Source: Chitinophagaceae bacterium (GTDB taxonomy: Bacteria; Bacteroidota; Bacteroidia; Chitinophagales; Chitinophagaceae). Taken from it: a stretch of 64,000 bases of DNA. The stretch spans positions 1-64,000 of the forward strand of contig CANLAE010000001.1 in assembly GCA_947488765.1 (NCBI GenBank). The letters run 5' to 3'. This document shows positions 56,326 to 61,413 of the stretch, piece after piece; the stretch's first letter is position 1; each line of letters begins with the position of its first letter. Under the pieces are notes generated by a model that worked only from the letters and a program-made list of their open reading frames with translations, ran no database searches and was not told the DNA's origin. The position numbers and the translations under genes are program-made.

Positions 56326-56357
56326 AAAAAAGTTCTACCAATTGGTAGAACTTTTTT
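56326..56357. terminator. Bidirectional terminator of rpmH and ABC gene
   Basis: A 16-bp palindrome AAAAAAGTTCTACCAA (56326-56341) / its complement (56342-56357) with T-runs on both strands. It contains the stop codon of the minus-strand ABC_membrane gene (56335-56337), so that gene ends inside the hairpin. Confidence 0.85.
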
Positions 56358-57201
56358 CAATTTCTATCCTTTGTGCAATATCATTTAATGATGCATATTT
56401 ATCTACTGCATAAGGAATAGTGTCAAGCCCTGTTACAAAACTCTTCACATAACTATACATCGCAATCAAGCTGCCGGCATTCAATAATAATGCTCCTTTG
56501 TGGGTGGTAATCAAAGAAAGGGCAATAACAATGATGGATAACATTTCCATGATTCCAAAATTGATGGCTTGTTTATCAGAAATTTTGATTTGCCAATATC
56601 TTAGTTTGTCGTAATGCTTATGAATAGCTGAAATATTTCCTGATTCAATTACATCAATTTGATTTTCCAATTCGTCATTTTTTGTTTTGTTCAGCTGCTT
56701 CATTTTTTTACCATAAAAGTAACTGATAGTCATTACCGGAATTAAGATGCTAAAGCAAATAGCCACAACATGTATATCATAAAAGAACAATAAAATAAGA
56801 GAGCCGAAAATGTTGTAAACAGCTTCTAAAATATATACCAAATCGTGCTCCAAAAAATCTACAAACTCTCTTGCCAAAGTGCTATGTGCAGAGAGTTTTG
56901 ATACATCTTTGTGATTAATTTGACGACTTAAAAAATTGGTAACTATTGTATTATAAATAGATGAATAAGTTCTTGTATCAAATCGTTGCCTGATAACGCC
57001 GACAATCATCCATAAAAAACGAACAATACATAAATAAATTAAACCATTGTAGCTTTTATTAATTAATCCGTTTACAGCTTCGCCCAAAAAATAAGGAGTT
57101 AACAACAATCCAATCATTTCCAGAGAAAACAATACATAGGTAATCAAAAGTTGTACCTTATGTTTAAGAAATATTTTTTTTAAAATAATCAATCTTGCCA
57201 T
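56335..57201 (-). CDS. ABC-transporter six-TM domain without an ATPase
   Basis: A 288-residue protein with about five to six hydrophobic segments and the overall pattern of ABC_membrane_3 (LITYVLFSLEMIGLLLTPYFLGEAVNGL, DFLEHDLVYILEAVYNIFGS). There is no Walker motif, so no nucleotide-binding part. It may be a degraded exporter or pair with an ATPase elsewhere. It lies 165 nt downstream of the ATP-grasp-SET gene on the same strand and could be co-transcribed. Role in export of a product is inference. Confidence 0.75.
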   Translation of the reverse strand: MARLIILKKIFLKHKVQLLITYVLFSLEMIGLLLTPYFLGEAVNGLINKSYNGLIYLCIVRFLWMIVGVIRQRFDTRTYSSIYNTIVTNFLSRQINHKDVSKLSAHSTLAREFVDFLEHDLVYILEAVYNIFGSLILLFFYDIHVVAICFSILIPVMTISYFYGKKMKQLNKTKNDELENQIDVIESGNISAIHKHYDKLRYWQIKISDKQAINFGIMEMLSIIVIALSLITTHKGALLLNAGSLIAMYSYVKSFVTGLDTIPYAVDKYASLNDIAQRIEIEKSSTNW

Positions 57202-57365: not shown

Positions 57366-58769
57366 TTAGGTAATTGAAGTGTTTTTAACTCCCGAAATTT
57401 TACCCCTGCATTGCGTGCTACCGCACTGGCATTCAAAAGGTTGTGCAGTTTCATCTAAAAAGTTGCTATAGTCCAAGGTCAATTCTTCATCACTATTAAT
57501 GTTGCGCAATGCCACAACATTGAGCCCTACGTAAGCGGTGTTTGCGCTGCAGCTATGATTTTGTGGCGCCCATTCTGCGGGGTTTTCGCTCCATAAAATA
57601 TATACTTCTTTACTGATAGGGTATGCGTAACGGGCAAAGTCTAATTGTTCTCTTTCATTCCAGCTAGCCGATACATATTTTTTAGTAACAATTCTTTGTG
57701 CTTTTTCTTCTCCTTTAAAAACAACCTCTCCTTTTAGAATAGGTTGTGTTGCATAAATTCCATAACCTTCAATAGCATTTCCTTCAACAGCATATTTTTT
57801 TTGTTTTCTTTTATGCCTTGCTATTCCTTCTATAATGATATGCTGTAAAAACCCAGCTTGCCCAATTCCATCATTGTATAAAATATAATCAGCGCTTCCT
57901 TCAAAACCATCAGTATAGAATACCGAACAAGTAAAATTAATTTCCAGAAAAAAAAGTTTGCCTTCAGCATTCATTCTAAAATCCAATCTTGCATACCCTT
58001 CGCCATTAAAAGCCGTGAAAATGCTTGCTGCAGCGGTTCTTAAAGTATTATCTAGTTCAACATCATTTACGGGGACATTTGCATCGGTATGTAAATCGGA
58101 TGTTTTAAGGCTGTATGTTTTAAAGGTATTGGTCTCCGGAAAAATAAATTCTACCGGTTTAAATGTAGTGCAAGTTTTGCCATCAGCATTTGCTGCAACT
58201 AATACGGTGAACTCTCTTCCTGCTATATATTCTTCTACTAAAATTTCATTGTATTCATCGATAATAGCTGCTACTTTTTTTTGTAGTTGTATTTCATTTT
58301 GAACCAATGAAAATTCATCGATACCTAAACTGTCACCGGCTTTTGCAGGTTTTACAAACAATGGAAATTGTAAAGATTGAATGGCATTTTTTATTTCATA
58401 GGAAGATTGAATTAAACAAAATTTTGGGGTTGCTACTCCGGCACAAAAAGACACATACTTCATTAACTTTTTTGTTGGATCATACAATAAAGTGGTTGGT
58501 CCTGTAAATGGAAGTTGCAATAATTCTAAATAATAAATAACTTCTATGCTTGGTACATCCCATTCTAAATAGCCCTCACAAAGATTTACAAAAACATCAA
58601 ATCCTTCTTTGCTTAATTTTTTTAATTGCTTGTAAACGGTGAGTTTGTGTAAAAAAACAGTTGCTACTTCATCATTGGGCATCAGCTGATTTAAAATTCT
58701 TGGAGGATCATAATGCCGATAATCTACAGTAGAAGTTGAATAATCGGGAAGTAGTACACAAATTTTCAT
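57366..58769 (-). CDS. Fused Ddl-like ATP-grasp ligase and SET methyltransferase
   Basis: A 467-residue two-domain protein. Residues about 1-315 are an ATP-grasp of D-Ala-D-Ala ligase type: Lys140 in FVKPAKAGDSLG, the acidic EEYIAGREFTV, and metal ligands in ARLDFRM (Asp263) and FLEIN (Glu276, Asn278). Residues about 325-455 are a SET domain: GYGIYATQ, NHSC at 404-407, LDY at 432-434, and post-SET Cys447, Cys449, Cys454. Both parts look intact. ATP-grasp ligases join amide bonds; SET proteins methylate lysines with SAM. Their fusion implies a shared substrate. No known system matches. Cytosolic. Confidence 0.9.
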   Translation of the reverse strand: MKICVLLPDYSTSTVDYRHYDPPRILNQLMPNDEVATVFLHKLTVYKQLKKLSKEGFDVFVNLCEGYLEWDVPSIEVIYYLELLQLPFTGPTTLLYDPTKKLMKYVSFCAGVATPKFCLIQSSYEIKNAIQSLQFPLFVKPAKAGDSLGIDEFSLVQNEIQLQKKVAAIIDEYNEILVEEYIAGREFTVLVAANADGKTCTTFKPVEFIFPETNTFKTYSLKTSDLHTDANVPVNDVELDNTLRTAAASIFTAFNGEGYARLDFRMNAEGKLFFLEINFTCSVFYTDGFEGSADYILYNDGIGQAGFLQHIIIEGIARHKRKQKKYAVEGNAIEGYGIYATQPILKGEVVFKGEEKAQRIVTKKYVSASWNEREQLDFARYAYPISKEVYILWSENPAEWAPQNHSCSANTAYVGLNVVALRNINSDEELTLDYSNFLDETAQPFECQCGSTQCRGKISGVKNTSIT

Positions 58770-58826
58770 ATTCTTTGAAACTTAACAATAGCAATGGTTT
58801 ACAACAAAATATTGTATGCAATAAAG

Positions 58827-59918
58827 CTATTGATTTTTTGTAATTGCATTGTATAAAATTTCACTTACCAAAGAGGTAAATGATTGGTTACTCACTTTCA
58901 AAATTGCACCAATGCTTGTGTAATCTTCATCCTCACTTAGCCCACATTGGGCATTCACTTCAAGCACGTACATTTTTTTGGTGATATTATCCATTCTGAT
59001 ATCAGCTCTTGTATATCCCGTTCCTTTACAAGAAACATAAGCCTTCCAAGCCAATGTTTTTATTTCCTCCTGCAGTTCTGAAGGTGCCGGTTGATACTCA
59101 TAAAAATTTTCATCATTGGGCATCGGTGTTTCATCTTCATAAATTTCCCATAATCTGTCAAATGATAAAAACTTTTCTGCTGCCGGTAATGATGGATGAA
59201 ATACTCTTTCAACAGGCGTAAAAATTATTGCAGTTTCCGGTTGAAGATAATTACCGACAATCAATACAGTGTATTCGGGCCCGTCGATAAAAGCTTCTGC
59301 AATAATGCCATCGGTTGCTAATTGCCATCCTCTATAACCCGCAAACATTTTTTCTATTTGTGTATTAAGCTCGTCTTGATTGTTTACAACATTTTTTATA
59401 CTCACGCCCATACTGCCACCACTTACAGCCGGTTTTACAATAACCGGATTGCCGAGGGTTGTAAAAACATTTTCTACATTTTCTTCAGCGTGTGTAATCG
59501 CTTTCCATTTTGCAGTTGCTACATCATATTTATCAAATGCCTGCTTCATGGGCACCTTAGAAGTAGTGATATGGTAAAAAAATGCGTCTGCTCCAGTATA
59601 AATTAATTTTTTTTCTTCCAAATAATGAATCACAGAAATTCCTGGTGTTCCGTTCATTTCATCACCATCGCACAAATTAAAAATTATGGGTTGTAATAGT
59701 GTTGATGTGTGAATGATGGTATCAATGATTTCCCGAAAATTATTCATTGTTACCGGTTGCCATTGCCACTCAATCTTTAATTCGGCAAAAGCTTTAGTAT
59801 ATTCTTCAATGCTTTGCGTAAAATCATAATAGTAGTCAATATTTGCATCAGCAGTTTCTAAATGCGGAGCTAGTACCCAAACTTTTATTTGATGGAATAT
59901 GGTATTTAATTTGTTCAA
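58827..59918 (-). CDS. Ddl-like ATP-grasp ligase
   Basis: A 363-residue cytosolic ATP-grasp protein. An N-terminal domain with NLCDGDEMNGTPG precedes the ATP-binding region: Lys162 in VKPAVSGGSMGVSI, EAFIDGPEYTV, and metal ligands Asp306 (ADIRMD), Glu320 and Asn322 (VLEVNAQCG). It resembles D-Ala-D-Ala ligase, but the insertions and the gene context (SET genes, no cell-wall genes adjacent) point to another amide ligase. Its start overlaps the SET gene stop by 4 nt (ATGA). Confidence 0.85.
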   Translation of the reverse strand: MNKLNTIFHQIKVWVLAPHLETADANIDYYYDFTQSIEEYTKAFAELKIEWQWQPVTMNNFREIIDTIIHTSTLLQPIIFNLCDGDEMNGTPGISVIHYLEEKKLIYTGADAFFYHITTSKVPMKQAFDKYDVATAKWKAITHAEENVENVFTTLGNPVIVKPAVSGGSMGVSIKNVVNNQDELNTQIEKMFAGYRGWQLATDGIIAEAFIDGPEYTVLIVGNYLQPETAIIFTPVERVFHPSLPAAEKFLSFDRLWEIYEDETPMPNDENFYEYQPAPSELQEEIKTLAWKAYVSCKGTGYTRADIRMDNITKKMYVLEVNAQCGLSEDEDYTSIGAILKVSNQSFTSLVSEILYNAITKNQ

Positions 59919-60406
59919 ACGTTTATCTTAGATTGAATAAAAGAAGTCAGTTGATATTTTGATAAAATATTTCGGTCAATGTATTTAGCCCCTTTAATAA
60001 TTTTAAGGCAATCGGATGAACTGCAGTTGCATTCGAAAGCCTGCGCCATATCCCATTCAGCAGATGGATAAAAGAAACAAAATTCATCACCAACTACGAT
60101 ATGTTTTACGCAAATTAGCTGCTTGGATTCAGTATCAAAAAAAACATTTGGGTTACAGCTATGGTTGGTGTATTGTAAAAACTCTGGAGTAATATGAATA
60201 TGTTTTTTTTCTGAAAGTTGAATGGTTAAGTAAGTTGGATCTGCTAAAATTTCCTTTATTTCAAAAACTGCTATTATGTCTCCAACAGCAAAGTTTTTTT
60301 TTGAAAAAAATGCTTTAGCACCTGATGATGTATCTTGCTTTATTTCACCAATTTCATGTGTGCTGATGCTTGTGTAATGCTTTATTGGCTTTTGCTCATT
60401 TATCAT
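59915..60406 (-). CDS. SET-domain lysine methyltransferase-like protein
   Basis: A 163-residue protein. The SET core is GAKAFFSKKNFAVGDIIAVFE, QYTNHSCNPN (81-87) and FCFFYPS, with a post-SET zinc site Cys126, Cys128, Cys133. The DY of many SETs is replaced by FY. Predicted to methylate a lysine or amine using SAM; the target is unknown. It is translationally coupled to the ATP-grasp gene by a 4-nt overlap, in a likely operon of 60406 down to 57366. Confidence 0.88.
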   Translation of the reverse strand: MINEQKPIKHYTSISTHEIGEIKQDTSSGAKAFFSKKNFAVGDIIAVFEIKEILADPTYLTIQLSEKKHIHITPEFLQYTNHSCNPNVFFDTESKQLICVKHIVVGDEFCFFYPSAEWDMAQAFECNCSSSDCLKIIKGAKYIDRNILSKYQLTSFIQSKINV

Positions 60407-60459: not shown

Positions 60460-61413
60460 TTAAAATTTAAAATATATACCGGCTTCTACAAAAAAGCTAG
60501 TTGATAAGTTTTTTTCAGATTCGGGTGTACTATCTTCTATTTTTACATAGGTATTTCCATTTCTTGGTTTATAAGTAGATGTGGTAGTGGTATATATTGG
60601 ATTTTGCGGTATTGCTAGTGTTGGTGTGCAATAAATTCCCCATTTTTTTTCATCATAGCTGATTGGTACAAACAATTCAATGTCCATTAATGTAAGTTTG
60701 TTTTGGGCAACTTTTGTTACCGATGTAACACTAATTAGAGTTGTATTTGTATTTAGCTTTTTATTTGAAAAGCTTTTACTCGTATATCCTTCGTAGAAAT
60801 AAAGTGTACTTAAATTAACCATTGCTTTTGGAGTAATGGTCCATTGCTTATCATCATTACCTAAGTAAAAAGAACGACTGATGGTTGCATCAATACCAAT
60901 ATCTGTTTTGTTTGCAAAAGATGCACTTAAGCCTGTGTTGAATTCAAAAAAATCAAAGTCGTAAGTAAGGCTTGCACTTAAACTCCCTTTTACATCGCTA
61001 CTTACAATTTTACTCCCTTCCTGATAAACACATTTGTTAGCAGATACACTTCCTGACAATTTTTTAGTAATATAAAATTCATAACCGGCATCAAAAGAAT
61101 AATAATCTATTTTCTTTGATGCAGAGGAAGCTAGATAACCTACAGAAGCTGAAATATAAAATCCACTTTTATCATAGTATCCAATCGTTGGAGTGATGTA
61201 GGGTAAAGCAAGTGAGTCAGCTCTTCCTAAATAAACAGAATTGTTTACATAATTAAAATCAAACTTGAAGTGTGATTTTTCTGCTGAAGTAGAATCTACT
61301 TTTATCAGGGTAGTATCTGTTATGCCATTTCTTATTGATTGTGCATTTGTGAAATTGCTGTATATCAGAACTATAATAAATACAAATGTGATCGCGGTAA
61401 ATTTATTGCTCAT
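60460..61413 (-). CDS. Outer-membrane beta-barrel candidate
   Basis: A 317-residue protein with a signal peptide (about 1-24, ending TNAQ). The rest is rich in alternating polar/aromatic beta strands (YISASVGYLAS, YSFDAGYEFYI, ASLTYDFDFFEF), finishing in FFVEAGIYFKF with a C-terminal Phe, the usual barrel ending. It has no TonB-box or plug. It lies 53 nt upstream of the SET gene on the same strand, so it may be co-transcribed and help export or sense something. No family was recognised. Confidence 0.7.
   Translation of the reverse strand: MSNKFTAITFVFIIVLIYSNFTNAQSIRNGITDTTLIKVDSTSAEKSHFKFDFNYVNNSVYLGRADSLALPYITPTIGYYDKSGFYISASVGYLASSASKKIDYYSFDAGYEFYITKKLSGSVSANKCVYQEGSKIVSSDVKGSLSASLTYDFDFFEFNTGLSASFANKTDIGIDATISRSFYLGNDDKQWTITPKAMVNLSTLYFYEGYTSKSFSNKKLNTNTTLISVTSVTKVAQNKLTLMDIELFVPISYDEKKWGIYCTPTLAIPQNPIYTTTTSTYKPRNGNTYVKIEDSTPESEKNLSTSFFVEAGIYFKF

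Follow-up and report, generated by a model that had tools for sequence, protein, structure and literature searches.

A cassette of four genes, encoding a stand-alone SET-fold methyltransferase (SET1), a Ddl-like ATP-grasp ligase (AG1), a second such ligase fused to a further SET domain (AG2SET) and an ABC-exporter-type membrane protein, is a small conserved gene unit in many Bacteroidota, the last of the four being often but not always present. We assign a probability of about one half to its being a small-molecule biosynthesis-and-export system whose product would be a methylated amide derived from amino acids; the conservation of the unit is observed directly, while we infer the small-molecule nature of the product, the order of the steps and export. 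In the window, by which we mean the whole 64 000-nucleotide stretch analysed, the cassette is transcribed from the minus strand in the order SET1, AG1, AG2SET, ABC-type membrane protein gene. The genes of the locus are:

59915–60406, minus strand: SET1, 163 aa, stand-alone SET-fold methyltransferase, BurB-like
58827–59918, minus strand: AG1, 363 aa, TTG start, Ddl-like ATP-grasp ligase
57366–58769, minus strand: AG2SET, 467 aa, Ddl-like ATP-grasp (residues ~1–325) followed by a complete SET domain (~330–460)
56335–57201, minus strand: ABC-exporter-type transmembrane protein without nucleotide-binding domain, 288 aa, ABC_membrane_3 (PF13748)
60460–61413, minus strand: secreted, possibly outer-membrane protein, 317 aa, 53 nt upstream of SET1

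The first three of these had been called as intact minus-strand genes in the first-pass annotation, with coordinates that proved exact; the start of AG1 overlaps the stop of SET1 by 4 nt, and the catalytic motifs described there as intact are invariant or nearly so across 13–36 homologues. That gene set was incomplete, however, in that it overlooked the fourth member of the unit, the ABC-type protein at 56335–57201. The 317-aa protein gave no Pfam or NCBIfam match above cut-off, and its relatives occur near the cassette in only about five loci and in varying position; it is likely a local neighbour outside the core cassette.

Neighbourhoods were counted in 70 non-redundant loci, each flanked by 3.2 kb or more on either side. 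AG2SET has AG1 close by in 62 of them; for SET1 the figure is 60 and for the ABC gene 37, and in every case the strand is shared. The full order SET1-AG1-AG2SET-ABC, with the ABC gene directly after AG2SET, is found in 33 of the 70 loci, and SET1-AG1-AG2SET without an ABC gene in 22; median gaps within the cassette are 6, 16 and 106 nt, and the flanks differ between loci. Full-length AG2SET orthologues (59–91% identity) are present in 14 of 61 related genomes, the window's own included, and AG1 adjoins AG2SET in every one of these; SET1 is adjacent in all except L039, and in L043 it comes after the ABC gene. In the remaining related genomes nothing was matched beyond ordinary Ddl proteins and a small number of further weak hits. 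A scan of the genome collection confirmed 496 relatives, of which the best 80 are nearly all labelled as Chitinophagaceae, Chitinophagales or Bacteroidetes.

Surveying 246 genomes of the family, we found AG2SET in 74 and SET1 in 72, with both in 70 and one alone in six (Fisher p ~8e-54, relatedness of the genomes being uncorrected). The ABC protein, at a threshold of E <= 1e-40, is present in 31 of the 246, 30 of which also have AG2SET and the last SET1. SET1 lies far from AG1-AG2SET in one genome (G030) and is on a different contig from AG2SET, yet present, in four others (G533, G508, G581 and G632); because it is kept even when unlinked, the connection between SET1 and AG2SET looks functional and not positional only. 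Chance association is excluded, since orthologues, order and strand persist across dozens of genera against changing flanks. The shared system proposed in the first-pass annotation is accordingly borne out as one conserved unit across Bacteroidota loci: the order is clearly neither unique to this genome nor a row of separate housekeeping functions, and the cassette occurs in about 30% of the sampled family genomes and in several distant Bacteroidota lineages.

Among those distant lineages, a sample of the phylum gave full-length ATP-grasp::SET fusions in four further families. Loci of family f38 (L154–L156 and L159) have the order SET1, AG2SET, complete ABC exporter (transmembrane part and ATPase) and a third, small SET gene; at L159 SET1 was missed by ORF calling but was located beside AG2SET in the same genome. 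The product of this third SET gene, which follows the exporter, is about 120 aa long and has NHHC instead of NHSC. Both SET1-AG1 and AG2SET are present in G269, on separate contigs.

ABC exporters are tied to the cassette in two forms, transmembrane-only in Chitinophagaceae and full length in f38. Set against what an ABC exporter comprises, the 288-aa window protein has the transmembrane domain only (PF13748, 142.8 bits; no ATPase domain in Pfam), and transmembrane and nucleotide-binding domains occur together in f38. Direct homology of the two forms was considered and rejected: hhalign matched neither family to the other, although both forms are of ABC transmembrane type and the alignments compared were shallow.

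In the favoured explanation, the two paralogous ligases would each form one amide bond, converting a carboxylate to its acyl phosphate, which then reacts with an amine; the outcome would be a short peptide-like amide. SAM-dependent methylation of a building block of free amino-acid type, at either S or N, would fall to SET1, whereas the SET domain within AG2SET would methylate either what its own ligase consumes or what it makes. The product would exit via the ABC-type membrane protein. The presence of two ligases, two methylation sites and two exporter-type forms, together with the absence of a precursor peptide and a patchy distribution, suggests production and export of a small methylated amide, and the patchy distribution (74 of 246 family genomes) fits an accessory metabolite. 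A small-molecule pathway is further favoured because the nearest solved relative of SET1, BurB, acts on free methionine and not on histones, and because related ATP-grasps stand next to genes for GNAT and lysine 2,3-aminomutase, which suggests an amino-acid-derived metabolite; the ligases' position outside the Ddl clade agrees with this. Counting against export, the common ABC protein has no ATPase domain and the ABC gene is missing from the 22 of 70 loci that keep the other three genes.

A conserved small gene or precursor peptide, for which the first-pass annotation had advised a search, was not found in the flanks or gaps of the cassette, where the recurrent matches to small ORFs seem to fall in or opposite neighbouring genes. 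With no precursor ORF found, a RiPP or graspetide identity was rejected. Graspetide (microviridin-type) clusters do resemble the cassette in combining ATP-grasp ligases with an ABC transporter (PMC8939145), but the cassette ligases are Ddl-like, no precursor peptide was found with them, and that source mentions no SET enzymes.

Of the other explanations, protein or peptide tagging survives best, and we consider it rather unlikely. Here the ligases would add amino acids to a side chain or terminus (compare tubulin tyrosine ligase) and the SET domains would methylate lysines of the target or of the tag. SET domains mostly carry out protein-lysine methylation, and the one within AG2SET is no less similar to KMT2-type protein lysine methyltransferases than to BurB. 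In one distant genome (L153) the fusion lies beside an FGase, a glutathione-synthetase-like ATP-grasp and a MATCAP (QEGLA), a family that includes the eukaryotic tubulin tyrosine carboxypeptidase. This setting would fit peptide-tag editing equally well and to that extent counts against a small molecule, but it was met at only one of 101 loci. Eukaryotic TTLL12, the one example in the literature searched of a protein uniting SET-like and ATP-grasp-type ligase domains, provides a precedent for the combination, its ligase domain being of the TTL type; it is reported to have neither histone methylation nor tubulin ligase activity (PMC3520985). Its ATP-grasp family differs from that of the cassette proteins, which are Ddl-type and gave no TTL match in Pfam. 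Tagging is further weakened by the lack of a conserved target gene or precursor peptide within or beside the cassette, by the closeness of SET1 to an enzyme of free amino acids, and by the recurrent ABC exporter, which would have no role in it.

SET1 resembles BurB in both sequence and fold. In Pfam its SET domain is a marginal match (22.1 bits, cut-off 22.4). A profile search of the PDB placed BurB first (E 4.9e-17) and the best histone SET next (4e-8). For the AlphaFold model (pLDDT 93.5), BurB was likewise the best Foldseek match (E 4e-9, TM 0.70; next match 6e-6). Alignments show NHSC, Tyr113 and a post-SET Cys to be conserved in SET1, and the SET superfamily features (NHSC, catalytic Tyr, post-SET cysteines) are invariant or nearly so in both SET1 and the fused SET domain, the sequence of the latter matching BurB and KMT2-type enzymes equally well. 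BurB methylates free methionine in a pocket that is sealed upon SAM binding (PMC12542666). SET1 shares with the BurB/MSMT enzymes of the DMSP and malleicyprol pathways the small stand-alone SET fold and the T-x-Q, His and catalytic Tyr positions. It differs from them in retaining NHSC, the Asn of which the BurB clade has lost, and in having no aligned equivalents of the BurB SAM contacts His72, Arg133 and His138; in the tree it groups with SETs from a Streptomyces plasmid and from another Bacteroidota genome, apart from BurB. That the residues of BurB specific to substrate and SAM are absent from SET1, save general SET ones, weighs against the small-molecule reading, and methylation of a free amino acid is accordingly inferred from the fold.

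The first-pass annotation had envisaged a pathway of ligation and N-methylation acting on a small molecule or a protein side chain. The conserved system stands, but methylation at lysine nitrogen was an assumption, the closest characterised relative of SET1 being an S-methyltransferase of free methionine. Judged by these comparisons, methylation of a free amino acid, at S or at N, would be at least as likely as N-methylation of lysine.

A narrower sulfonium route, in which SET1 would be a true methionine S-methyltransferase and the ligases would conjugate the resulting S-methylmethionine, appears improbable. It draws on BurB as the nearest solved relative and on the company of more distant bacterial SETs, which lie beside S-adenosylmethionine decarboxylase genes at two loci (L193 and L202) and, at another (L201), in a PKS cluster that also encodes an aminotransferase and an aldehyde dehydrogenase. 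Against it stand the retained NHSC, the missing His72, Arg133 and His138 equivalents and the grouping of SET1 with other SETs. Only the four cassette genes recur in consistent position. Among the neighbour clusters of the 101 loci, of which a minority are annotated, no decarboxylase, aminotransferase or aldehyde dehydrogenase gene such as the DMSP route uses was recognised in a fixed position, so that dedicated downstream DMSP enzymes do not appear to travel with the cassette.

The ligases belong to the Ddl superfamily and are distinct from Ddl itself. Pfam gave Dala_Dala_lig_C (PF07478) at 65 bits for AG1 and at 90.6 bits for AG2SET, the latter with SET (PF00856) at 39.1 bits. The best NCBIfam Ddl scores are 91.4 bits for AG1 (cut-off 243) and 92.8 for AG2SET (cut-off 245.65), and both proteins fall below every Ddl/Van cut-off shown. 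The AG2SET model has a pLDDT of 85.4 and its ATP-grasp part matches Ddl structures (Foldseek E 1e-18); the ATP-grasp/Ddl fold and the catalytic residues are present in both ligases, as in Ddl. In trees, AG1 and AG2 form clades with UFBoot 100 each that are sisters at UFBoot 99, outside Ddl, and the 12 AG2 sequences included, from five family-level lineages, are all fusions, which sets AG2 apart from Ddl. The acceptor loop of both ligases has an invariant Cys (NxxC) where Ddl has Pro-Gly (NxxPG). Housekeeping Ddl was considered as an identity for AG1 and AG2 and ruled out by the tree, the cut-offs and a separate genomic Ddl (G000:C4:31722-32318). Modification of the cell envelope, in which peptidoglycan would receive a changed D-Ala-D-X or bridge peptide from the ligases, with the SETs methylating its lysine or diamino acid, could appeal to the superfamily and to the membrane protein within the unit, but the tree, the cut-offs shown, the exchange of Pro-Gly for Cys and the lack of recognised murein genes among conserved neighbours, most clusters of which are without annotation, make it the least probable of the explanations considered.

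The closest unfused ATP-grasps in the Bacteroidota sample are found alone or as two in tandem, with genes for a GNAT acetyltransferase and a lysine 2,3-aminomutase as neighbours (L208, L210 and L211). Enzymes of these two types jointly produce N-epsilon-acetyl-beta-lysine in other organisms. The tandem pairs, a sister group in the tree, resemble the cassette in having two adjacent related ATP-grasps with an amine-modifying enzyme, but the acetyltransferase and aminomutase take the place of SET, the ligases are unfused and no ABC protein was seen. These sets may themselves be an uncharacterised operon.

No match for any of the four cassette proteins was returned by PADLOC, so that a role in anti-phage defence was set aside. 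Cargo of phages or plasmids was likewise rejected: both gave partial matches of Ddl type only, and viral contigs held no relative.

The first-pass annotation knew of no characterised pathway that combines these enzymes, and no description of the cassette appeared in the literature searched; the 2009 amidoligase survey of Iyer et al. may contain a passing mention. The parts belong to known superfamilies, and what is new is an ATP-grasp amide-ligase operon with built-in SET methylation. To our knowledge, SET domains have been studied almost solely as histone or protein lysine methyltransferases, and a SET domain fused to an amide ligase in a conserved cassette would broaden the chemistry of the fold. 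We put at somewhat below even odds the further proposal that paired ATP-grasp ligases and SETs make an undescribed class of natural product or signal, the fused SET domain methylating its ligase's own small-molecule intermediate. It would be another small-molecule SET case after BurB, the first in which the domain forms part of an amide ligase, and the cassette would point to a probably exported metabolite of widespread environmental bacteria.

Several related genes elsewhere have neighbourhoods of their own. On a plasmid of Thioflavicoccus mobilis (L192), genes for a diaminobutyrate transaminase, an SbnA-like protein and an ornithine cyclodeaminase form a row with a related ATP-grasp gene, and KamA, a radical SAM protein, is encoded alongside on the opposite strand. 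At L193 (8464–10317, G260:C65) a 617-aa protein fuses SET, S-adenosylmethionine decarboxylase and spermidine synthase domains, and adjoins a 483-aa protein in which an N-terminal SET domain is the sole Pfam match. Plasmid p7 of Rhizobium bangladeshense (L202, 4889–6801) has a BurB-clade SET gene between asparagine-synthase-related and S-adenosylmethionine decarboxylase genes, and further carries ribonucleotide reductase and RuvC genes. The PKS cluster at L201 (5932–10400), on a plasmid of Eleftheria terrae, holds a BurB-like SET gene and includes a dioxygenase gene besides those for the aminotransferase and aldehyde dehydrogenase.
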